Below, piece after piece: positions 13,006-25,065 of a stretch of 26,949 nt of DNA; position 1 is the first letter of the stretch; the number at the start of each line of letters is the position of its first letter. The DNA comes from a virus. The stretch lies in the IMG/VR virus record IMGVR_UViG_3300031507_000024, positions 1-26,949 of that record; one strand, 5' to 3'. The notes below the pieces were generated by a model. It made no database searches. It had not been told where the DNA came from and was given only the letters and a program-made list of their open reading frames with translations. Made by a program: the position numbers and the translations under genes.

Positions 13006-13006
13006 G

Positions 13007-13072
13007 TGGGCCTGGGGGGAGTCGAACCCCCAACACGACCAGCTTCACTGGCAGGCGAAACCATCCAGGCCC
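13007..13072 (-). tRNA. tRNA-Phe-like gene (GAA anticodon) with a reduced D-arm
   Basis: Read on the minus strand: a 7-bp acceptor stem GGGCCTG/CAGGCCC, 12 bases in place of the usual D region (at most a 3-bp mini stem), an anticodon arm with loop GTGAAGC (T33, anticodon GAA), a 5-base variable loop, a perfect 5-bp T-stem of G:C pairs with loop TTCGACT, and discriminator A. The length is 66 bases against about 73-76 for a normal tRNA, and CCA is not encoded. The anticodon stem has one G:T pair and one mismatch. It could be a working minimal tRNA, a decoy or a processing signal. Confidence 0.7.
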
Positions 13073-13077
13073 TAGCA

Positions 13078-13099
13078 GGCGCCCCCTTTCGGGGGCGCC
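13078..13099 (-). other. Strong 9-bp hairpin upstream of the tRNA-like gene
   Basis: GGCGCCCCC and GGGGGCGCC pair around a 4-base loop between the 50-residue gene and the tRNA-like gene. No T-run follows on the minus strand, so it may be a processing or stability element rather than a terminator. Confidence 0.6.
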
Positions 13100-17224: not shown

Positions 17225-17995
17225 ATGGCCAAAACTCGCTCAACACTCATTTTGCCCGATGTGCAGTACCCATACCATGACCATGTGGTACTCGATAAGA
17301 TACTGCACATCGCTCGCACATACCAGCCTGATCAGATCATACAGATCGGGGATGGTATCGACTTCCCTCAGGTCAGTCAGTGGTCCAAGGGTACGGCAGG
17401 CGAGTACGCAGACACCCTACAGGAGCACATAGACGGCTACCGGCAAGAGGTACTGGTGCCGCTCCGTGAAGCTGCGCCAGAGGCGCGCATCACCTGGATC
17501 GAGGGTAACCATGATCTTCGACTGCGGGAGTTCGTTCGTAAATACGCTGCGCCACTGACCAACCTCCGGGCGCTTGAGGTAGAGTCCCTTTTCGCCCTGG
17601 AGAATCTCGACATCAGCTATGAACGTGGTCCGCTCCGTGTAGCCACCAATACGCTGGTAGTACACGGTCACGAAGCTGGCGGGTACTGCGCCAGCGCCAG
17701 CGCCTGGGATGCCAAGTTCACGAAGCGGTACGGTAGCGATAAGAACTTCGTGTTCGGTCATACGCACCAGCCTTTCCTGATCACCCGAGCGTTCGGTTAC
17801 TCGGGACGTGTGTCACCCAGGTTCACGATGAACGCGGGAAGTGTGATGGATCCCGTGGCTGCTACGTACGTGAAGGACGGAGCCGTATCCTGGCAACAGT
17901 CATTCGCATGGCTGGAGGACGACGGGAAGCGTGTGTGGCCTGAGTTGGTCACGCTGGTAGACCGGCTGGGTTACTTCAAGGGGGAGCGAATCTGA
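17225..17995 (+). CDS. Metallophosphoesterase (calcineurin-like)
   Basis: 256 residues with all five metal-binding motifs in order: PDVQYPYHD (D12), IGDG (D43), GNHD (94-97), VHGHE (147-150) and GHTH (178-181). Such enzymes use two metal ions to cleave phosphoesters in nucleotides, nucleic acids or signal molecules; the substrate cannot be read from sequence. ATG 17225 follows GGGGGT. The stop overlaps the next ATG (TGATG), so it forms an operon with the sigma-like gene. Both face opposite to their neighbours, so they are expressed separately. Confidence 0.88.
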   Translation: MAKTRSTLILPDVQYPYHDHVVLDKILHIARTYQPDQIIQIGDGIDFPQVSQWSKGTAGEYADTLQEHIDGYRQEVLVPLREAAPEARITWIEGNHDLRLREFVRKYAAPLTNLRALEVESLFALENLDISYERGPLRVATNTLVVHGHEAGGYCASASAWDAKFTKRYGSDKNFVFGHTHQPFLITRAFGYSGRVSPRFTMNAGSVMDPVAATYVKDGAVSWQQSFAWLEDDGKRVWPELVTLVDRLGYFKGERI

Positions 17996-18702
17996 TGCTC
18001 GACTACGAACTGCTGACGCCCACTGTCGACCGAGCAGCAGGCATCGCTACGTCCAACTTCCCTGCACACCACGACATCTCCGACGTGAAGCAGGAGATTT
18101 GGGTGTGGATCATGAGTAACAAGCCCACGGTCACCAGAGTCCTCAGCGAAGGTGAAGGCTACGAGGCTAAGCTCATGAGCCTGTTGGTCCGAGCTGCGAA
18201 CACATACCTCAAGACAGAGGACGCGCAGGTCTACGGATACGCCGAGGAGGACAGGTTTGATTACTCGGTCGACATGATCAAGAAGATCCTGGAAGTCGTC
18301 TTCAGGTACGAGGACTGGCAGTCGTTCGCCATGAGCCAGGACACCCAGCCTAGAGCTAAGAGTGATCCCTCGCTGGGCGGTAACAACCTTGCCTCGTACG
18401 CCGACGTCAAGTCGGCGGTGGAGAAGCTTCCAGAAGACTATTACAACCTGATCGTGTGGCGCTACAAGTACAGCCTTACGTTCACTCAGATCGGTGCCGA
18501 GACCGGCACCACCAAGCAATCCGTCCAGGAACGCCACAACAGGGCCGTGAAGGCCATACAGACACTGCTTGGACAGCAGTCCCTCAGTGAGCTTCGCAAC
18601 GGCTACGACGGGCGTACAGCGGATGCTGTGACCCGAGGGCGGGTGGGCGGTATGACCTCCGGCAACGCCCAGTACATCATAGAGCGCGACTACGAGGGGT
18701 GA
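17995..18702 (+). CDS. Sigma-70-family-like protein
   Basis: 235 residues. The C-terminal part (about 138-195) has the region 4 pattern VKSAVEKLPEDYYNLIVWRY, then SLTFTQIGAETGTTKQSVQE with a helix-turn-helix, then RHNRAVKAIQTLLG. The N-terminal part (ISDVKQEIWVWIM…) resembles a weak region 2. It may be a phage sigma factor for middle or late promoters, or an anti-host variant of ECF type. The last 40 residues (DGRTADAVTRGRVGGMTSGN) are an added flexible tail. A terminator lies about 65 bases after the stop. Confidence 0.78.
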   Translation: MLDYELLTPTVDRAAGIATSNFPAHHDISDVKQEIWVWIMSNKPTVTRVLSEGEGYEAKLMSLLVRAANTYLKTEDAQVYGYAEEDRFDYSVDMIKKILEVVFRYEDWQSFAMSQDTQPRAKSDPSLGGNNLASYADVKSAVEKLPEDYYNLIVWRYKYSLTFTQIGAETGTTKQSVQERHNRAVKAIQTLLGQQSLSELRNGYDGRTADAVTRGRVGGMTSGNAQYIIERDYEG

Positions 18703-18708
18703 TCTGAG

Positions 18709-18762
18709 TGGGCGAGAGGGGAGTCGAACCCCTTGAGAGCTGATCCGGTATCAGCCTCACCC
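18709..18762 (-). ncRNA. D-arm-less tRNA-like element (TLS-2)
   Basis: The minus strand gives a 7-bp acceptor stem GGGTGAG/CTCGCCC with no spacer, a 17-base arm (stem GCTGA/TCAGC, loop TACCGGA), 5 bases, a T-arm of 5 bp with loop TTCGACT, the acceptor 3' strand and a following A. Its 53 paired-core bases match a tRNA with exactly the D region removed. Position 33 is A and not U, so normal decoding is unlikely. CCA is not encoded. It lies after the last minus gene and opposite the end of the sigma-like operon. Confidence 0.7.
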
Positions 18763-18767
18763 TTGGG

Positions 18768-18794
18768 ACCCCAGCCTTCCGGCTGGGGTTTCTT
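18768..18794 (+). terminator. Intrinsic terminator after the sigma-like gene
   Basis: A 9-bp stem ACCCCAGCC/GGCTGGGGT with TTCC loop is followed by TTCTT on the plus strand. It also lies just beyond the end of the minus operon, so it may act in both directions. The tRNA-like element TLS-2 is between it and the sigma-like gene. Confidence 0.75.
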
Positions 18795-18798
18795 GCTG

Positions 18799-18969
18799 TC
18801 ACTCCTCTCCGGACCATTCCCGGAGCGCTTCGTCTGCGTCCACTTCCTCGCCCACCATATACTCGATGGCGTCCTGAAGTCGGTGCGCACGGTCGTACCA
18901 GTGGACGGCTACGCCCGTGGCACCGGCAAGCAGGAGTCCGCTCACGAAGGAGAGAGTGCTGGGCTTCAC
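18799..18969 (-). CDS. Single-pass membrane protein, 56 aa
   Basis: GTG 18969 overlaps the upstream stop (GTGA). A helix LSFVSGLLLAGATGVAVHWY (about residues 6-25) is followed by an acidic cytosolic or exposed part ending DADEALREWSGEE. It is the last protein gene of the right minus operon. It and the next two small genes are chained by overlaps. Function unknown; a membrane modulator or immunity role is possible. Confidence 0.65.
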   Translation of the reverse strand: MKPSTLSFVSGLLLAGATGVAVHWYDRAHRLQDAIEYMVGEEVDADEALREWSGEE

Positions 18970-19088
18970 CGGCCTCGGCCTCCAGCCGAGCCGGACAGCC
19001 AGACGATGACAGCGCCCACCACCAGCGCACCACCTACGCCCTTGCCTACCATCTGCTGCGCCATGACGATGTGCTGCGCGAGGATCAC
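18966..19088 (-). CDS. Small membrane protein, 40 aa
   Basis: GTG overlaps the upstream stop and the TGA overlaps the next GTG. A Gly/Val-rich helix VGGALVVGAVIVWLSG spans about residues 18-33, with a basic C-terminus (AGGRGR). Too short for homology. The coupling supports translation. Confidence 0.58.
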   Translation of the reverse strand: MILAQHIVMAQQMVGKGVGGALVVGAVIVWLSGSAGGRGR

Positions 19089-19252
19089 AGCGACTCCACG
19101 TGCTTGGCGGGGAAGACGTGAATCTCATCCTCGTCGTCCATCACGATGACCATCTCGCGCCCGTCTGGAGTGACAGGCAAGGCCACCACCCTGGCTACGA
19201 AGTCCCCATAGCCAGGGGCTCCGGAGATCTTCACTCGCGTTCCAACGTTCAC
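19085..19252 (-). CDS. Small beta-barrel protein, 55 aa
   Basis: GTG 19252 lies 7 bases after AAGGAGG and overlaps the previous stop; the in-frame GTG 19255 is closer and less likely. The sequence VGTRVKISGAPGYGDFVARV, then REMVIVMDDEDEIHVFPAKH, looks like a KOW/SH3-like barrel of the kind found in many phages. Ligand unknown. Confidence 0.68.
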   Translation of the reverse strand: MNVGTRVKISGAPGYGDFVARVVALPVTPDGREMVIVMDDEDEIHVFPAKHVESL

Positions 19253-19821
19253 CACTTTGCCTCCTTGTGGTAGTACTGCCCAAGATTCCGGTTGGAATCC
19301 ACTTGCAGCACTCCAGACTTCAGGTCTCGCATGAGTACGCACTGCGGGCCGACTGCGACAACCTCGAAGGTGGCTATCCTTTGCCTCAGCGAGGCCTTGT
19401 CCCCCACCTTCCAGTCAGGGTTGTCCCAGGCTTCGGCGATCTCCGCGTCGGTCATCTCGACCATCCTGCCTTTGCCTTCGATGACCACACGCCTCTTGGG
19501 GCGGTACTCCTCGCAGTACGCCCACAGCGGGGGAGATGTGGGGCCGTACCATCCGTACGAAGAAGTCTCGTGGACGACCCACGCTTCTCCCCGCTCATCG
19601 TCAAGCCAGGCGATATACCTGGTCTTTCCGTCCACCGGTGACTTGATCAGCATGCCCGCCCTCAAGGGCGTGGCAGGCTTCTTGACTGCGCTCAGTAGCA
19701 TGTCCAGGTACCCATCCACGATCTCGGCAGCGATCTCCTCAAGAGATCGCCCTTCGTTGCGCTCGGCATCCAGGAACTTGGCTACGGCATCGATCTGCTG
19801 CTTACGCGTCGGGAGTGACAA
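19249..19821 (-). CDS. Hypothetical protein, 190 aa
   Basis: Helical N-terminus (QQIDAVAKFLDAERNEGRSL, then IAAEIVDGYLDMLLS). A beta region follows, with LIKSPVDGKTRYIAWLDDE and a Trp/Tyr-rich loop (SSYGWYGPTSPPLWAYCEEY), and a second helix-strand part. Two SH3-like repeats are possible (GMLIKSPVDGKTRYI and VGDKASLRQRIATFEVV). No family named. It overlaps both neighbours and is the largest product of this section. Confidence 0.72.
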   Translation of the reverse strand: MSLPTRKQQIDAVAKFLDAERNEGRSLEEIAAEIVDGYLDMLLSAVKKPATPLRAGMLIKSPVDGKTRYIAWLDDERGEAWVVHETSSYGWYGPTSPPLWAYCEEYRPKRRVVIEGKGRMVEMTDAEIAEAWDNPDWKVGDKASLRQRIATFEVVAVGPQCVLMRDLKSGVLQVDSNRNLGQYYHKEAKW

Positions 19822-20038
19822 ACCCTACCACCTCCTTGCTGACCTTGTAGCCGATCACGGACTCGATGGAAACCCGGTAGACGTAGGCGGGCTGGTCGGT
19901 CGCCTTCGTGTGATCCTTGGCAATCGACTTGGCGTCCCGCTCAGGATCGGGCCCACTGAGGCACGTCTCGATGATATTGCCGGGCTCAAGGGCGTACGTC
20001 TTGTTACTCGTCGTGCTGGCCGCGTATCCGATACGCAT
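19802..20038 (-). CDS. Hypothetical protein, 78 aa
   Basis: ATG 20038 follows GAGGAGT. A mainly beta protein (GNIIETCLSGPDPERDAKSI, a turn, then AYVYRVSIESVIGYKV). The last part overlaps the next gene by 20 bases. No family recognised. Its leader contains the 98-base structured element at 20076-20173. Confidence 0.7.
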   Translation of the reverse strand: MRIGYAASTTSNKTYALEPGNIIETCLSGPDPERDAKSIAKDHTKATDQPAYVYRVSIESVIGYKVSKEVVGFVTPDA

Positions 20039-20075
20039 GTGTTACTCCTCGCTAGATCCGATGCTGCGGACAGGC

Positions 20076-20173
20076 CAGCACAGAGTGAACAACCACCATC
20101 CGGGTGACAAGCCCTTAGTCCCTTATCCAGGGCACTGGTGGGAGCCTACTTATATTTCGGCAACTCTGTGCTG
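20076..20173 (-). ncRNA. 98-base structured leader element closed by an 11-bp stem
   Basis: Bases 20076-20086 and 20163-20173 pair perfectly (CAGCACAGAGT with its complement). Inside, a CCACC/GGTGG helix encloses a GCCCT/AGGGC helix, and an unpaired A/T-rich stretch lies near 20140-20160. A separate hairpin (GAACGGCGC/GCGCCGTTC, 20188-20207) is next to it. The form recalls a riboswitch or a structured 5' leader, but no known class is recognised. Confidence 0.5.
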
Positions 20174-20224
20174 ACTTGACCGCCCAGGAACGGCGCTAGG
20201 CGCCGTTCCGTGGACAGGATCATG

Positions 20225-20368
20225 TCACTTCCCTACCTTGTAGACGCCAGCGCGCTTGGCGAGCCTAAACCCACCACTCACGACCACCGTCGTGTACGAG
20301 TATACCCGGTTCGTCTCGAACCGAGCAAGCCTTGACAGCGCAGCTTTGATCGTCTTCCGACTAGTCAT
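20225..20368 (-). CDS. Small basic protein, 47 aa
   Basis: ATG 20368 lies inside the end of the zinc-protein gene. The sequence TSRKTIKAALSRLARFETNR, then VYSYTTVVVSGGFRLAKRAG, is a helix followed by a beta hairpin, as in small winged-helix pieces. It is strongly basic, so nucleic-acid binding is possible. A longer frame to 20605 is a composite of two genes and was not used. Confidence 0.62.
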   Translation of the reverse strand: MTSRKTIKAALSRLARFETNRVYSYTTVVVSGGFRLAKRAGVYKVGK

Positions 20369-20534
20369 AGCAGGCGTCCTCCATGTCCATCTCGGGCTCA
20401 CGGAAGAACTCCGCGAGATCCCATATGTCCGTGCAGGTCGCAGAGCAGAAGAGCACCGTGGCCTTACCCATGTAGGACTTGCAGACGAGACACCTGGAGT
20501 CGTCCGCCCAGTCCGGAGAGCCAAATCCTGGCAT
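20361..20534 (-). CDS. Zinc-binding protein, 57 aa
   Basis: ATG 20534 follows AAGGAGC. CLVC and CSATC with WDLAEFF after them give an FCS-like or MYM-type finger (C-x2-C…C-x3-C). The end is acidic (EPEMDMEDACYD). Such fingers occur in many small phage proteins; function unknown. The end overlaps the next gene. Confidence 0.66.
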   Translation of the reverse strand: MPGFGSPDWADDSRCLVCKSYMGKATVLFCSATCTDIWDLAEFFREPEMDMEDACYD

Positions 20535-20695
20535 TGTTGCTCCTTACCACAAGGAAGGCGCTGAAGCCTTCCTGACAGAACAGGCGGAAGCCTGTTCCTC
20601 CGCATGCCGCTGTGCGGCGATGCTAGCGCCTAAAGGGGCTTCCGAGGCCTGAGGTACCCGAAGTACCTTCCTAGAGGCTTAGAGGGCCCGTGAGG
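20535..20695 (-). other. Hairpin-rich spacer before the zinc-protein gene
   Basis: No gene is supported. Read on the minus strand there are at least four hairpins: GGTAC/GTACC near 20655-20670, GCCGC/GCGGC near 20601-20615, GAACAGGC/GCCTGTTC at about 20577-20597, and GGAAGGC/GCCTTCC at about 20552-20572. They stand in a row ending just before the ribosome site. This may be a processing or stability region like the other spacers of this arm. Confidence 0.5.
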
Positions 20696-21145
20696 TCACC
20701 AGGAAGAGACTTCCGTCCAGCTGGCCTGGAAGTCCATGAACCCTTGCTCTCCGGAGTAGCGTTGTTCGTACGTGTACTGTCCGACCATCTCAGTGGTCAC
20801 ACTCTGCCCCCACAGCTGCCCCTCGTCAACGGCATCGCGGATCTTCTGAATCACCCTTTTGCGGGTCCTCCCGGACCCGATGAAGTCGTCTACGAAGATC
20901 CAACGGTTGCCGAGCTCGCCGACGACCCGACCCTTTCCATGGTGGCTGTCATCGGTTTCCTTGCGAATGAGCACGAACTTCTTGCCCATGACGAGAGCAA
21001 GGGAGGGGATCACGATGCTGCCCGAGAAGCCAGTACCTACCATCGTGTCGAAATCGACGTCGGCGAGCTGCTCCTCGGCGGTCTCGATCACCTCGGGCAG
21101 GCTGAAGACAGCGGCGTCCATGTAGTACGTCTGGAACTTGGTCAC
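20696..21145 (-). CDS. Phosphoribosyltransferase-like protein
   Basis: The GTG start has GAGGAGG before it. The 149-residue protein has the PRPP-loop signature FVDDFIGSGRTRKRV (about 84-98), preceded by VGTGFSGSIVIPSLALVMGK (a GTGFSG segment that binds the other substrate) and FVLIRKE. Type I PRTases transfer phosphoribose between PRPP and a base. In phages such proteins may serve in nucleotide metabolism or lack activity. It is preceded by a tRNA-like element and a hairpin in its leader. Confidence 0.8.
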   Translation of the reverse strand: MTKFQTYYMDAAVFSLPEVIETAEEQLADVDFDTMVGTGFSGSIVIPSLALVMGKKFVLIRKETDDSHHGKGRVVGELGNRWIFVDDFIGSGRTRKRVIQKIRDAVDEGQLWGQSVTTEMVGQYTYEQRYSGEQGFMDFQASWTEVSSW

Positions 21146-21183
21146 TGTATCCTCCTCAGGAACGCCCCTGTGGCGTTCCCTAG

Positions 21184-21233
21184 TGCCAGCCCGAGACTCG
21201 AACTCGGGAGTTGGCCTGGTTACCAGTCTGGCG
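21184..21233 (-). ncRNA. D-arm-less tRNA-like element (TLS-3)
   Basis: On the minus strand GCCAG pairs with CTGGC as a short acceptor stem. A CTGG/CCAG hairpin follows with the sequence GGTAACCAGGCC, then a T-arm CCCGAG/CTCGGG with loop TTCGAGT, and a CACTAG tail. It starts a few bases after the stop of the small membrane gene. A GGAACGCC/GGCGTTCC hairpin follows directly, then the ribosome site of the phosphoribosyltransferase gene. Confidence 0.6.
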
Positions 21234-21239
21234 ACCCTT

Positions 21240-21356
21240 TCATCGCTTCGTGAATGCTATCCAGAGCGTCACGCCGAACACGAACAGGATCAAGGCCACG
21301 ACGATGCTGACGTAAACGGCAGCAGCACCGAGCAGCCATGTGAGTGCTGTGTGCAT
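21240..21356 (-). CDS. Small membrane protein, 38 aa
   Basis: ATG overlaps the lipoprotein stop (TGATG). One long hydrophobic helix (LTWLLGAAAVYVSIVVALIL, then FVFGVTLWIAF) is followed by TKR. It is probably anchored in the membrane beside the lipoprotein and may act with it. Function unknown. Confidence 0.65.
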   Translation of the reverse strand: MHTALTWLLGAAAVYVSIVVALILFVFGVTLWIAFTKR

Positions 21357-21763
21357 CAGCCCTCCGAACTGTTCTGGAAGTCCACGTCAGGGATGAGCGT
21401 CTGCGGGCGGAAGATCACCTTGTAGTGGTATCCACTCACCTTGGCAGGCGAGCCCTGCTCCACGGTCCACGTGACGTTGTCCGACAGGCCAGCATAGAAC
21501 TTCTTGTACTCGCCCGGACCGACCTTGCACGTGGTCACGAGCTTCTGGGGGTCATTGGTGTTGATGGAGCACGCTCCAGTGATGACCATCAGGTACTTGT
21601 CGGTGATGCCGTTGATCACGACGATACGGCGGTTGACCTGGAAGTGGTCGGCGGCCTTTGACACGTTGTCAGAGGCGGTATCCGCCTCACTCGTGCACGC
21701 CGTTGCGCCTATGCCCAGAGTGACCGCCGCCATGACGGCAGCAGCGATGTGACTCTTACGCAT
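21356..21763 (-). CDS. Phage-encoded lipoprotein, 135 aa
   Basis: A signal peptide (MRKSHIAAAVMAAVTLGIGA) ends in a lipobox TAC with Cys23. The mature part is beta-rich (RRIVVINGITDKYLMVITGA, then two strands with KVSGYHYKVIFRPQTL) and contains two further Cys (CSIN and CKVG), which could pair. Lipoproteins of lytic actinophages often sit outside the membrane and can block later phages; exclusion of superinfection is a likely but unproven role. TLS-6 and a hairpin lie in its leader. Confidence 0.78.
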   Translation of the reverse strand: MRKSHIAAAVMAAVTLGIGATACTSEADTASDNVSKAADHFQVNRRIVVINGITDKYLMVITGACSINTNDPQKLVTTCKVGPGEYKKFYAGLSDNVTWTVEQGSPAKVSGYHYKVIFRPQTLIPDVDFQNSSEG

Positions 21764-21782
21764 TCAGTCCTCATTCCCACAC

Positions 21783-21807
21783 CTGACATGCCCTTCCGGC
21801 ATGTCAG
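21783..21807 (-). other. 10-bp hairpin before the lipoprotein gene
   Basis: CTGACATGCC and GGCATGTCAG pair around a CTTCC loop. It lies between TLS-6 and the GAGG ribosome site, in the same order as at TLS-3 and TLS-4. Confidence 0.65.
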
Positions 21808-21811
21808 ACAG

Positions 21812-21862
21812 TGGGTGTCAGGATCATCGCAATCCCGATGGAGGCTTGAGTACCTCTCACCC
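21812..21862 (-). ncRNA. D-arm-less tRNA-like element (TLS-6)
   Basis: The minus strand shows GGGTG/CACCC as a 5-bp acceptor stem, a GAGG/CCTC arm with loop TACTCAAG, and a T-like arm GGGAT/ATCCT with loop TGCGATG. The order and the middle loop resemble TLS-4 (AGAGGTACTCAAGCC against AGGGGTAACCAAGCC). It is weaker than TLS-2, with G55 in the T-loop. It lies in the leader of the lipoprotein gene. Confidence 0.5.
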
Positions 21863-21918
21863 GGTGGGGCTATTTCATGCCCCTGCTGACCTGCTCAGGC
21901 TTGTGCCACCGAGTCAGG

Positions 21919-22383
21919 TCAGTGTTCTTCTGTCCATCCGTCGAACCAGGGGCCGGAGCGTCGTGTCCGACGCTTACCGGCCTCATTGGTGCATGTGCTG
22001 CTGGAAGTCTCAGGGTCGCTGCAGTGAGCCTGCGCCAACGCTTGAGTCAGGCCGGTCTTGATGGTGAAGCGCCTGCCGCTGTCGCGGAAGTGCCTGATCA
22101 CCTTGTACGTGGTCTCGCTGAACAGAGTGAACGCATGACGTTCACCGTGCAGCCATGAGCCGCACCCTTCGCATTGTGACGTGCTGTAGGTGTTCGTCTC
22201 GCAGTCGCAGTCGTCAACATCACCACAGAAGTTCTCTCCGAGGTGCTCTCCTCGCATTATGCCCATGGCGAAGTCCTGGCCGACCAGGAGACTCAAGGGC
22301 TCTTCGTCGTGACCCACGAAACAGCCGCCACACTCGCCGTTGGCGTGGTGCAGCATGCAGTCTATGCACACCCAAATAGTCAT
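21919..22383 (-). CDS. Cysteine-rich zinc-binding protein, 154 aa
   Basis: Four or more Cys pairs: CIDC and CGGC in the first 20 residues (with HHANGE between), CDCE near 57, CEGCG near 70, and a late HCSDPETSSSTC. Such spacing fits two zinc ribbons. The middle (EGCGSWLHGERHAFTLFSET, then TYKVIRHFRD) is folded. A basic end follows (KRRTRRSGPWFDGW). Many actinophages carry proteins of this pattern; function unknown. The leader holds hairpins. Confidence 0.72.
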   Translation of the reverse strand: MTIWVCIDCMLHHANGECGGCFVGHDEEPLSLLVGQDFAMGIMRGEHLGENFCGDVDDCDCETNTYSTSQCEGCGSWLHGERHAFTLFSETTYKVIRHFRDSGRRFTIKTGLTQALAQAHCSDPETSSSTCTNEAGKRRTRRSGPWFDGWTEEH

Positions 22384-22526
22384 GATGTCCTCCTGTAAGC
22401 ATCACGCTCGCATGAGCGCTAGTGAGTGCCCCGCCTTGAAGCGGGGCGCAGGCCTGGACGACGCTAGCGGAGCTAGCTAGAAAGCTAGTCAGCTCCGCTG
22501 GCGGCGCGTACCTGTCACCCTGTCGA
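22384..22526 (-). other. Hairpin-rich spacer before the zinc-binding gene
   Basis: Minus strand: an AGCGGAGCT/AGCTCCGCT stem near 22464-22498 with several CTAG; then a GCCCCGC/GCGGGGC stem with loop TTCAAG at about 22428-22447, which looks like a T-arm one base short; then CACTCACTAG and a CGCTCATGCGAGCG hairpin at about 22407-22420. It shares the CACTAG tail and hairpin-then-ribosome-site order with TLS-3 and TLS-4 but has no clear acceptor stem. Confidence 0.5.
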
Positions 22527-22886
22527 TCAGTTGAGATATGCGAGTGCCTCGCTGAGTGCGACGCCCCACGGAAGGCCCTGATCCTGGTTGTGCTGAACCT
22601 CACTCAGCAGGGAGCGGGCCGAGCCGTCATAGCTGATGACACCCTCGTCACCGAGGTCCCTCATGAGGCTGTGAGCGGCGAGGCCGCTTCCGAAGGATCC
22701 CGTGTCAGCCTCCTTCAGGCGCTCCAGAGGTACGCCCTGGGCCGCGAGGAAGCGGCCCACGATGCAGTCAGGCTTACCATCGTAGACGCAGACGCCCTCA
22801 CGCTTGGCGTAGACGAAGTCGGCACCCTCCTCCTCAACAAGAGCCTTCAGGCCCGTGACAGTGGAGTCGAAAGTGATCTCGATCAT
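22527..22886 (-). CDS. Conserved-type hypothetical protein, 119 aa
   Basis: ATG follows GGGAAGGACACGCT. The motif CVYDGKPDCIVGRFLAAQGV, the later LLSEVQHNQDQGLPWGVALS and the final ALAYLN recall a family I have met in actinobacteria and their phages, with no known function. The N-terminus is a beta-helix start (IEITFDSTVTGLKALVEEEG). TLS-4 and a hairpin lie in its leader. Confidence 0.72.
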   Translation of the reverse strand: MIEITFDSTVTGLKALVEEEGADFVYAKREGVCVYDGKPDCIVGRFLAAQGVPLERLKEADTGSFGSGLAAHSLMRDLGDEGVISYDGSARSLLSEVQHNQDQGLPWGVALSEALAYLN

Positions 22887-22933
22887 AGCGTGTCCTTCCC
22901 TTACTGCACGGGCTCGGCTTGTGCCGAGCCCTA

Positions 22934-22982
22934 GTGAGCGGGGGAGAGTTGCACTCCCGGAGGGCTTGGTTACCCCTCCGCT
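22934..22982 (-). ncRNA. D-arm-less tRNA-like element (TLS-4)
   Basis: Minus strand: GAGCGG/CCGCTC acceptor stem (6 bp), an arm with stem AGGG/CCCT and central TAACCAA, 2 bases, then a T-like arm GGGAG/CTCCC with loop TGCAACT, and an ACTAG tail. A GGGCTCGGC/GCCGAGCCC hairpin and the ribosome site of 22527-22886 follow. A stem GGAGGG/CCCTCC is an alternative fold. The T-loop has G at position 55. Confidence 0.6.
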
Positions 22983-22990
22983 CGATGGTG

Positions 22991-23302
22991 TCAGTAGTTC
23001 TTGCCGAGCACTCGCAGGATGTCATCACGACGGCTCAGGATGGTGTACACCCTGCGCACGTCGTCGTCCTCCCGCGTGTCGTTGATGTCGAACAGTGTGG
23101 TCAGTTCGTAGCTGCAATCCTTCAGGTCGACACCCATCGGGGACGGACGGTAGCCAGGAAGGATTACGCCGTTGATGGCCCACATGTAGTCAGCCAGGGC
23201 GAACAGCCATGCGATGTTACTGCCCCACGGGTCTGCCCAATCTTCGAAGCAACGGACTTCATCCATGATCGCGTTGTACCCGCTGGACTCAAGCTTGTTC
23301 AT
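22991..23302 (-). CDS. Hypothetical protein, 103 aa
   Basis: AAGGGAG lies 1 base before ATG 23308 but 7 before ATG 23302, so 23302 is preferred. Mostly helical with many aromatic and acidic residues (FEDWADPWGSNIAWLFALAD, then YMWAINGVILPGYRPSP, then LFDINDTREDDDVRR). No family recognised. Hairpins fill the space to the gene upstream. Confidence 0.68.
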   Translation of the reverse strand: MNKLESSGYNAIMDEVRCFEDWADPWGSNIAWLFALADYMWAINGVILPGYRPSPMGVDLKDCSYELTTLFDINDTREDDDVRRVYTILSRRDDILRVLGKNY

Positions 23303-23393
23303 GTCCATGCTCCCTTGATCTGTCTCATCAGCGTAGGTAGATCAGCCCCTACGGACGAACGCCTGAGCGTTCGTTTCGACTTGGATCACTTCC

Positions 23394-23975: not shown

Positions 23976-24016
23976 GTTGTTCCTCTCTGCGGAGCCAAGA
24001 GGACTCACAGGGGCTG

Positions 24017-24034
24017 CACCCAACTCTTAGGGTG
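24017..24034 (-). repeat. Repeat hairpin copy A
   Basis: CACCC/GGGTG stem with loop AACTCTTA (plus-strand reading). The loop differs at one base from copy B at 24062-24081, while the stem is different, so the loop seems to be the conserved part. Confidence 0.5.
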
Positions 24035-24061
24035 GTCGGTAGCGCTAGTGCTCGGATGCTG

Positions 24062-24081
24062 GCCCCCAACGCTTAGGGGGC
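24062..24081 (-). repeat. Repeat hairpin copy B
   Basis: GCCCCC/GGGGGC stem with loop AACGCTTA (plus-strand reading), paired with copy A 28 bases away. No T-run follows in either direction. Confidence 0.5.
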
Positions 24082-24402
24082 TCATAACGCAGAGCCGGTG
24101 AGTAGATACCTGCCCCTGTGGGCCCGATGGCTCTTACAGGGAATTGTGACAGGCTCGGCGTATGTTGATCACGCCTGGCCACTCAACCGCTCTGGTAAAC
24201 AGCTCGCCAGCGGGGAGGAGTGCAGAGGGCGTGAAGCGTTACCGCTTCAGCCTGTCACGTTGGACTGTGTGCGTCAGAGTCAGCCGTAAGGACATTAGGA
24301 GGAGCGAAGCTCCTCCGCAGCTAGCAACTTACGTTGCGTCGCGTCCTACGCCCCCACAAGGGGCGTCGTCACTGCTGGTACTGACTACCGTCACGCACAC
24401 TT

Positions 24403-24430
24403 CACACTGTTGAGTTCTCAAGGTACAGCC
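24403..24430 (-). promoter_or_regulatory. rRNA-type BoxA antitermination site
   Basis: The minus strand reads CTTGAGAACTCAACAGTGTG, close to the BoxA-containing segment of actinobacterial rRNA leaders and spacers (general form TTTGAGAACTCAA, often followed by AGTGTG). In rRNA operons BoxA recruits NusB-NusE and stops Rho and intrinsic termination. Here it lies about 430 bases before the first minus gene, so it would load the complex at the start of a long operon full of hairpins. The match is from memory of the motif. Confidence 0.7.
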
Positions 24431-25065
24431 ATCGAGTTCTCGGACTCCTGGCGATGCTGTCCCGTCCAGCCGTTATGACCGACTGTGACGTTCACACCAG
24501 GTGGCCCATGCAGGCGCCAACGGTCCCTCGCCAGCCAGCTCACCCAGCTCGCCGTGAGGCGAGCCTAAAGCGATGAGATAGGCCTCTTGCTTGCAAGGCC
24601 CGTACTGTCCATCGCGTCATCATCCCTGGCTAGCCCACTTGCCCGACTTCGCAGCCAACGACACGCTGTCCGATGCGTACTCGATCACCCTTGCTGAGGT
24701 CGACTTTGCCCTGTGCGAGCGGCTGTGTCAACCCCTTGTGGTTGGCCGATCCTGCTGGCCTCCCCGTCATCCGTGTTGGCCTGACAACGAGAACATTGGC
24801 CCTTTGCTCGAATCCCGTCAAGCATCGCAGGTCAGAGGGGTTGGCAAGGCTGTCTGTTTGCTAGTGCGTGGCAGTGGGTGAACGCCGAGATTCCCTAAAG
24901 AATCATGGGATCTCAAGGCCAGCGCATGGGCGCTGGACGTAGCGGGGGAAGCAAGGCAGAACGGACACTCAGGGCATAGCGCTGGTAGGTGCTACAAACA
25001 TTGCTACAAAGCTGGGATGGAACGTCCATGAATGTCCGCTCTTGGTTTGCTGTTTGCTGCAAATC
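24431..25065. other. Region with no supported gene before the BoxA
   Basis: Open frames exist on both strands (for example 24630-24821 minus with a TTG start and KGDRVRIGQRV near its end), but none has a ribosome site or recognised motif. A TGTGACGTTCACA inverted repeat at 24484-24496 may be an operator upstream of the BoxA. A GCTACAAA repeat occurs twice near 24990-25012. A promoter for the long leader probably lies here, but none is clear. Confidence 0.4.

Follow-up and report, generated by a model that had tools for sequence, protein, structure and literature searches.

What do small tRNA-like structures do when they recur between the genes of a phage operon? The question is raised by four such elements (tRNA-like elements, TLSs) on the minus strand of IMG/VR virus record IMGVR_UViG_3300031507_000024, a 26,949-base fragment called the window here. 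An initial annotation had described the four as copies of one design placed in the leaders of genes, and had suggested that they serve to cut the polycistronic message. We find that the four elements are real and part of a large, apparently undescribed RNA family. Judged from sequence comparison, they are very probably minimal mimics of tRNA, placed as cutting marks along a long phage transcript; we assign this explanation, taken as a whole, a probability of roughly 0.86.

tRNA-like elements in the window

A mechanical, unbiased scan of the window for T-loop hairpins enclosed by an acceptor-like stem returned all four TLSs, each on the minus strand, and almost nothing else on that strand. A stricter descriptor gave these four matches plus one tRNA-like gene (positions 13008–13072), versus 0.07 matches per shuffled window (200 shuffles). 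Each of the four contains a single middle hairpin and a seven-base T-loop of the form T-N-C-R-A-N-N, followed by ACT, in agreement with the T54, C56 and A58 identities that had been read from the sequence at the outset.

The elements and hairpins described in this paragraph are all on the minus strand. The TLS at 22936–22983 lies in the leader of gene 22527–22886 and comprises a 6-bp acceptor stem (GAGCGG/CCGCTC), a 5-bp T-stem, a middle hairpin loop (UAACCAAG) containing equivalents of A18-G19, the T-loop UGCAACU and the tail ACU; after cutting, a strong hairpin between it and the ribosome site (22910–22931) would stand at the 5' end of the mRNA. The leader of the phrog_478/RDF-annotated gene 21356–21763 contains the second TLS (21813–21862), with a 5-bp acceptor stem, a 7-bp T-stem that includes one G-U pair, the loop UACUCAAG and the T-loop UGCGAUG. 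A third (21185–21232), in the leader of the phosphoribosyltransferase gene 20696–21145, combines a 5-bp acceptor stem and a 6-bp T-stem with the loop UAACCAGG and the T-loop UUCGAGU, and a strong hairpin (21159–21180) is found directly 5' of the ribosome site of that gene. The fourth (18710–18762; 7-bp acceptor stem, 5-bp T-stem, loop ACCGG, T-loop UUCGACU) is located at the 3' end of the minus-strand operon. Just upstream of it is a GC-rich hairpin (18768–18789), the predicted 3' end of the cut mRNA, which forms a terminator-like stem on the plus strand.

The setting of the TLSs is that of wide intergenic gaps within one operon on one strand, with a stop codon on the 5' side and a hairpin and ribosome site on the 3' side; the 3' end of the operon is a further site. 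Placement directly after a stop codon, initially reported for three copies, holds for those at 22936 and 21185 (7 nt in each case) and not for that at 21813 (56 nt). The copy at 18710 had also been assigned to a leader, and this assignment has to be withdrawn: no minus-strand gene follows it, it abuts the end of the opposing gene 17995–18702, and its position at the operon end is kept in five other contigs (L003, L038, L042, L053 and L129; L labels denote comparison loci or contigs, L313 being phage Manuel and L314 Streptomyces phage R4, NC_019414). The GC-rich hairpin on its 5' side is present in all six contigs, the window included.

The leader of gene 21919–22383 probably contains a further, degenerate TLS (22424–22520, minus strand; GGGTG...CACTC, ACTAG tail, 8-nt T-loop) with a large inserted hairpin. 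The ortholog of that gene in L003 has an ordinary TLS in its leader, and L164 contains another TLS carrying a large insert.

A family of compact elements with a rebuilt tRNA elbow

Related loci were gathered through protein homology, not through the element itself, and separately by a DNA pattern scan of IMG/VR. The scan yielded at least 120 stretches, nearly all of which contain fully paired elements, on one strand per locus. Most relatives in the protein-fetched loci have a compact, 40-nt form: a 5-bp acceptor stem, an 11-nt linker, a 6-bp T-stem, a 7-nt T-loop and an R-C-(not C) tail. The acceptor/T-arm stack of the family spans 11–12 bp and is capped by the T-loop at one end, and a linker of about 8–22 nt takes the place of the D-arm and anticodon arm.

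We examined base pairing in 236 unique compact copies from the protein-found and pattern-found loci combined (among the matches listed). Whereas the search demanded the helices, it left the linker and elbow pairs free, except for the fixed T-loop letters and, in pattern-found loci, the letters GGCA/TTCGAG. Linker bases 2 and 8 pair in all four Watson-Crick combinations (C-G in 118 copies, A-U in 64, G-C in 46 and U-A in 5), as do linker base 9 and T-loop base 7 (A-U in 149, G-C in 62, C-G in 9 and U-A in 7). Linker base 4 and T-loop base 2, which correspond by position to G18:U55 of tRNA, are G-U in 219 copies and A-G in 16, and linker base 5 and T-loop base 3, corresponding to G19:C56, are G-C in 235. 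The 77 copies of a pattern-free subset, from loci obtained through protein homology alone, behave in the same way. For 50 non-redundant rows the covariation score was 0.807, versus 0.182 when shuffled and at most 0.161 with slid partners. The compensatory changes in related phages that had been proposed as a check on the original reading are abundant in this set. In each case a short linker or mini-hairpin brings an R-G pair into contact with the T-loop, forming the equivalents of G18:U55 or A18:G55 and of G19:C56. At the level of sequence, this establishes the TLS as a tRNA elbow rebuilt without a D-stem or anticodon, and we regard it as virtually certain that the elements are real, conserved mimics of that elbow.

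A covariance model trained solely on the compact elements of other phages found 49 copies in TLS loci versus none in ten control loci, which included 41 annotated tRNAs in phages Manuel and FlowerPower. When applied to the window, it recovered 21182–21232 at 41.4 bits (E = 2.6e-8) and, marginally, 21810–21862 at 18.1 bits (E = 0.018). The elements at 22936 and 18710 were not recovered as whole elements because both are longer subtypes, with relatives in L035, L037 and L042 for the former and in L042 for the latter; membership of such subtypes therefore rests on design, relatives and elbow pairs, and not on model score. The elbow rule is kept in the window, where a loop ending in AG accompanies a T-loop beginning with UGC (22936 and 21813) and a loop ending in GG accompanies UUC (21185 and 18710). 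The element at 22936 is kept almost letter for letter in L002, in which the adjacent hairpin has a different sequence, and a related TLS is present at the place of the 21813 element in L004.

The family has no Rfam entry and no annotation in the records examined. Rfam cmscan gave no match at the four window TLSs up to E 5, or at those of L041, L045 and L053 up to E 2, and membership of a known Rfam family was rejected at these permissive thresholds in the window and its relatives. ARAGORN called only 13006–13082 in the window, and no TLS. Identity with tRNA (RF00005) was likewise rejected, as the elements are recognized by neither program and have no D-arm or anticodon arm. The mascRNA-menRNA model (RF01684) matched no TLS and gave only a sub-threshold score of 24.6 bits (cut-off 42.5) at the tRNA-His gene 13008–13072. 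The region 13006–13082 (minus strand), the sole tRNA call in the window (tRNA-His), lies outside the TLS family.

TLSs are present in the Streptomyces phages Endor1, Lika, Joe, phiHau3, Amela, Sujidade, Zemlya, Danzina, Sitrop and Alsaber, and also in Mycobacterium phage Cuke. A restrictive pattern run against 84,980 bacterial and archaeal genomes matched only 13 stretches, mostly actinobacterial. Among gaps of 80 nt or more in the leftward operons of Endor1 and Lika, TLSs occupy 8 of 8 and 8 of 10, respectively, and none is found in shorter gaps or on the other strand; they lie 33–52 nt (once 26 nt) 5' of the next start codon, and not one is annotated in the records of these two phages. Orthologs of the phosphoribosyltransferase gene carry a TLS in 17 of 20 leaders, and gene 19249, a negative control that overlaps its upstream gene, has an element in 0 of 20 relatives.

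Exchange with type II hammerhead ribozymes

In place of a TLS, the leader of gene 22991–23308 contains a type II hammerhead ribozyme (HHR; 23314–23381, minus strand), so that both types of element occur in the window. The HHR matches Rfam RF02276 over model positions 1–66 at 43.4 bits (gathering score 37). Its core, with a cleavage site after GUC, and its loop I/3'-tail pseudoknot (GAUCU:AGAUC) are intact at the sequence level, and self-cleavage is predicted. The pseudoknot, a described feature of type II hammerheads (PMC3088659), covaries between the window and L003, where it reads GACCU:AGGUC.

The leader of the phrog_572 gene (22527–22886 in the window) has a TLS in the window and in about 14 relatives, and an HHR in L003, L049 and L324. 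Among 16 Arquatrovirinae, ten have 6–9 TLSs and no HHR, and six, including R4, have 9–12 HHRs and no TLS; the leftward operon of R4 contains 9 HHRs above the Rfam cut-off and no TLS. At least four orthologous leaders (those of the OCR-like, gp72/gp76, acetyltransferase and 39-residue genes) have a TLS in Lika or Endor1 and an HHR in R4. The TLS replaces a self-cutting ribozyme slot by slot and genome by genome, which argues that it most probably marks a cut too. Type II HHRs of prophages self-cleave, and the processing of long phage transcripts was proposed by the authors who described them (PMC3088659). This exchange lends strong independent support to the cutting of the polycistronic message that had been suggested initially, and we consider the TLSs very likely to be cutting sites.

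Several further observations concern the hammerheads themselves. The HHR in the phrog_572 leader of L324 (7242–7342) carries an extra structured insert of ~50 nt in stem III. Three R4 HHRs (47096–47160, 44144–44208 and 41776–41840) lie within gp75.1, gp67.1 and gp60.1, which are annotated as small genes, and others within the 5' ends annotated for gp72 and gp76; these overlapping gene calls or starts are probably wrong. In L222 and other viral contigs, type II HHRs are repeated up to seven times on one strand, and hammerhead punctuation seems to be widespread beyond phages with TLSs.

Predicted transcript processing and alternative explanations

Host tRNA enzymes bind the acceptor/T-arm stack together with the elbow. 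Because the TLS offers this stack with a rebuilt elbow, we infer that RNase P cuts on its 5' side and RNase Z on its 3' side; participation of RNase P is probable, and that of RNase Z somewhat less assured. External guide sequences exploit the same substrate principle (PMC11143913). G1:C72 and R73-C74 are nearly invariant. In 227 copies chosen for a G start and a purine at position 73, base 74 is C in 227 of 227, base 75 is C in 3.5% versus a background of 31% (P = 3e-26), and CCA is encoded in 3. Bacterial RNase Z is blocked by CCA. The TLSs thus display the features of a tRNA-processing substrate (stack length, conserved or covarying elbow contacts and scarcity of CCA), and elbow mimicry, G1:C72 and CCA avoidance would fit the action of host RNase P and/or RNase Z. 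About 84% of copies are followed within 29 nt by a fold of −5 kcal/mol or lower, usually beginning 0–4 nt after base 73 or 74. The hairpin and U-run of an intrinsic terminator were not found, TTTT being absent from the 30 nt after each of the 227 elements.

In the proposed scheme, host RNase P would cut 5' of the acceptor stem and RNase Z after base 73. The products would be an upstream mRNA ending a few bases past its stop codon, a released fragment of 40–50 nt, and a downstream mRNA of a single gene or a few genes with a 5' hairpin a few nucleotides from its terminus, just before the ribosome site; the operon-end TLS would form the 3' end of the last mRNA, behind its hairpin. Such hairpin ends should resist 5'-end-dependent decay and uncouple the fate of each gene. 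A hammerhead would yield the same product shape unaided, with stem I becoming the 5' hairpin. An extra hairpin is unnecessary in HHR leaders because stem I sits at the new 5' end, and none was seen in the HHR leaders of the window, L003 and L049.

Several points weigh against this explanation. Usually, the acceptor stack has 11 bp, one pair fewer than that of tRNA, and position −1 is A in 75% of copies and U in 3%; bacterial RNase P often prefers uridine at that position. Some genes in every genome have neither a TLS nor an HHR, and phages Manuel, FlowerPower, phiC31, SV1 and TG1 have neither element. The division within the Arquatrovirinae fits a single switch (one change on the terL tree, one or two on the portal tree), and the 16 genomes are therefore not 16 independent tests; the exchanges in the phage group of the window are separate from that switch. 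Among HHR-bearing viral contigs at large, a TLS occurs in 1 of 120, a chance-like frequency (0–2 in shuffles), and a general linkage of the two elements was rejected on this basis. Loci with TLSs (8 HHRs in 1.44 Mb) show no clear excess of HHR density over the 'control' loci (3 in 0.63 Mb), because R4 is one of the latter; we therefore claim an exchange and not an enrichment.

The alternative that survives best is itself a variant of cutting, in which a single tRNA enzyme acts. With RNase P alone, the TLS would stay attached to the downstream mRNA as its 5' end; with RNase Z alone, it would stay on the upstream mRNA as its 3' end. The near invariance of G1:C72 and R73-C74 and the retention of G19:C56 in the elbow would suit the first version; the avoidance of CCA, the hairpin that mostly begins 0–4 nt after base 74, and the HHR counterpart, which likewise cuts just 5' of a hairpin, would suit the second. 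The features of neither side look dispensable, however, and the operon-end copy suits a 5' cut by RNase P whereas the leader copies suit a 3' cut by RNase Z; we consider a one-enzyme mechanism possible but rather doubtful.

The released mini-tRNAs might instead have a role in trans, such as that of decoys for host proteins that bind tRNA or cut it in defence, with cutting being simply the way to make them. Up to 12 copies are present per locus (among the matches listed), and tandem arrays, with copies mostly 110–150 bases apart and GGC-rich spacers, occupy long non-coding gaps on the minus strand of L059 (6600–7110), L122 (1600–2990), L144 (135–1525) and L174 (7552–7830), where they possibly release small RNAs. 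Such a role would sit poorly with placement gap by gap and with replacement by hammerheads, which release nothing tRNA-like, and appears improbable.

Slightly lower still do we rate an uncut cis-regulator of the next gene (similar to a riboswitch or T-box, or a translation enhancer). Although most copies lie in leaders near a ribosome site, TLSs are carried by genes of unrelated function, are exchanged with ribozymes of a self-cleaving type and show no conserved alternative pairing. A conserved copy has no gene after it; its position behind a GC-rich hairpin in all six contigs fits 3'-end formation and not a regulator confined to leaders. Finally, a functionless, selfish or mobile REP-like repeat spreading through intergenic gaps, as many copies per genome with loop sequences in common might suggest, is already refuted by covariation and slot conservation, since stems differ among copies of one genome while pairing is kept and slots are conserved across orthologs (17 of 20 phosphoribosyltransferase leaders). 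Transcript cutting remains much the best explanation.

Genomic context and other structured RNAs

The window contains metallophosphoesterase and sigma-K genes adjoining the minus-strand block with the RDF-annotated gene. The phages Manuel and FlowerPower of Streptomyces (Beephvirinae) have the same gene order, which points to a probable host of the Streptomyces type. A megablast search with the whole window did not find a close isolate, and its sole match was the phrog_478/RDF-annotated gene.

A second structured RNA is located at about 20062–20175 (minus strand), in the leader of gene 19802–20038. It consists, in order, of a long covarying helix, an invariant CCGAAA-N-AUAAGUAGG stem-loop, a variable hairpin, a UCCGCAG..CGGA hairpin and the ribosome site. 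Relatives are present at one copy per locus in L010 (12703), L003 (14260), Manuel (38774, minus strand) and 31 IMG/VR stretches, with compensatory changes in 19 of 24 predicted pairs; the RNA has no Rfam match and is apparently undescribed. In L099 and L164, a TLS replaces it before the ortholog of gene 19802–20038.

A conserved structured leader (GGGCCCUCUAAGCCUCUAGGA..GGUACUUCGGGUACCUCAGGCCUC..GAAGCCCCUUUAGGCGCU) is also found at ~20575–20700 (minus strand), before gene 20361–20534, and again in L164. In L099, L054, L157 and L052 the orthologous gene has a TLS instead, and this leader structure is possibly a further interchangeable cutter. One might extend these observations to a general transcript-cutting layer in actinobacterial phages with interchangeable RNA 'scissors' (TLSs cut by host enzymes, HHRs and at least one more undescribed RNA, that at 20062–20175, which occupies a slot of the same kind and is possibly a new self-cleaving ribozyme); we regard this extension as speculative and unlikely.

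Three contigs contain RNAs of ~81 nt that match only the two ends of tmRNA (55–68 bits) and leave hardly any space for a tag reading frame (L040, 19184–19264; L049, 17849–17929; L053, 18447–18528); a mini-tmRNA or another tRNA mimic is possible. A segment of the phage contig L053 (6838–6912) resembles a 16S rRNA fragment at 27.9 bits, below the cut-off (E = 0.0003). About 1 kb of the window (~24000–24960, minus strand) contains several strong stem-loops and no clear minus-strand genes.

Comparison with known systems

The absence of a described phage family of this kind, noted in the initial annotation, agrees with our literature search, which found no description in an incomplete library, so that 'undescribed' is provisional. 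To our knowledge, the TLSs are the smallest natural mimics of the tRNA elbow. If the proposed explanation is correct, a bacterial virus uses tRNA punctuation, so far mainly a mitochondrial theme, and evolution exchanges an RNA that recruits enzymes for one that cuts itself while the task stays the same. It would also provide a function for scattered phage hammerheads, a meaning for many unannotated gaps in well-known Streptomyces phages, and a ready-made 40-nt cutting tag for synthetic operons.

The closest parallels are mitochondrial tRNA punctuation and plant t-elements, in which excision by RNase P and RNase Z sets mRNA ends and the t-elements are not aminoacylated (PMC11658184, PMC8601606). 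The TLSs are similarly tRNA-like structures between genes. Unlike t-elements, they have no D-arm or anticodon, measure 40–50 nt, precede most genes with wide spacing in one operon and exchange places with ribozymes; the homology to tRNA genes that characterizes t-elements was not found, as no tRNA model matched a TLS. The mascRNA is cut by RNase P on its 5' side and RNase Z on its 3' side, as are mitochondrial t-elements (PMC11658184, PMC12941219), but mascRNA and menRNA (MALAT1, NEAT1; RF01684) belong to eukaryotic nuclear long non-coding RNAs, with one copy at the 3' end.

Within phages, M3 RNA, C4 antisense RNA and T4 gene 32 mRNA are reported to be cut by host RNase P (PMC11143913); these are single RNAs and not a family of shared minimal elbow design repeated gene by gene. 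Ordinary phage tRNA genes (RF00005) share the acceptor/T-arm stack, the T-loop and R73 with the TLSs, but possess a D-stem and anticodon arm and are not matched by the new model. The type II HHRs that flank phage genes (RF02276) have an unrelated fold and cleave themselves, whereas no catalytic core is known in the TLSs, which should depend on host enzymes. Both tRNA punctuation in mitochondria and gene-flanking hammerheads in prophages (PMC3088659) are already known; the novel part seems to be a dedicated minimal elbow mimic that is used gene by gene in phages and exchanged with ribozymes.

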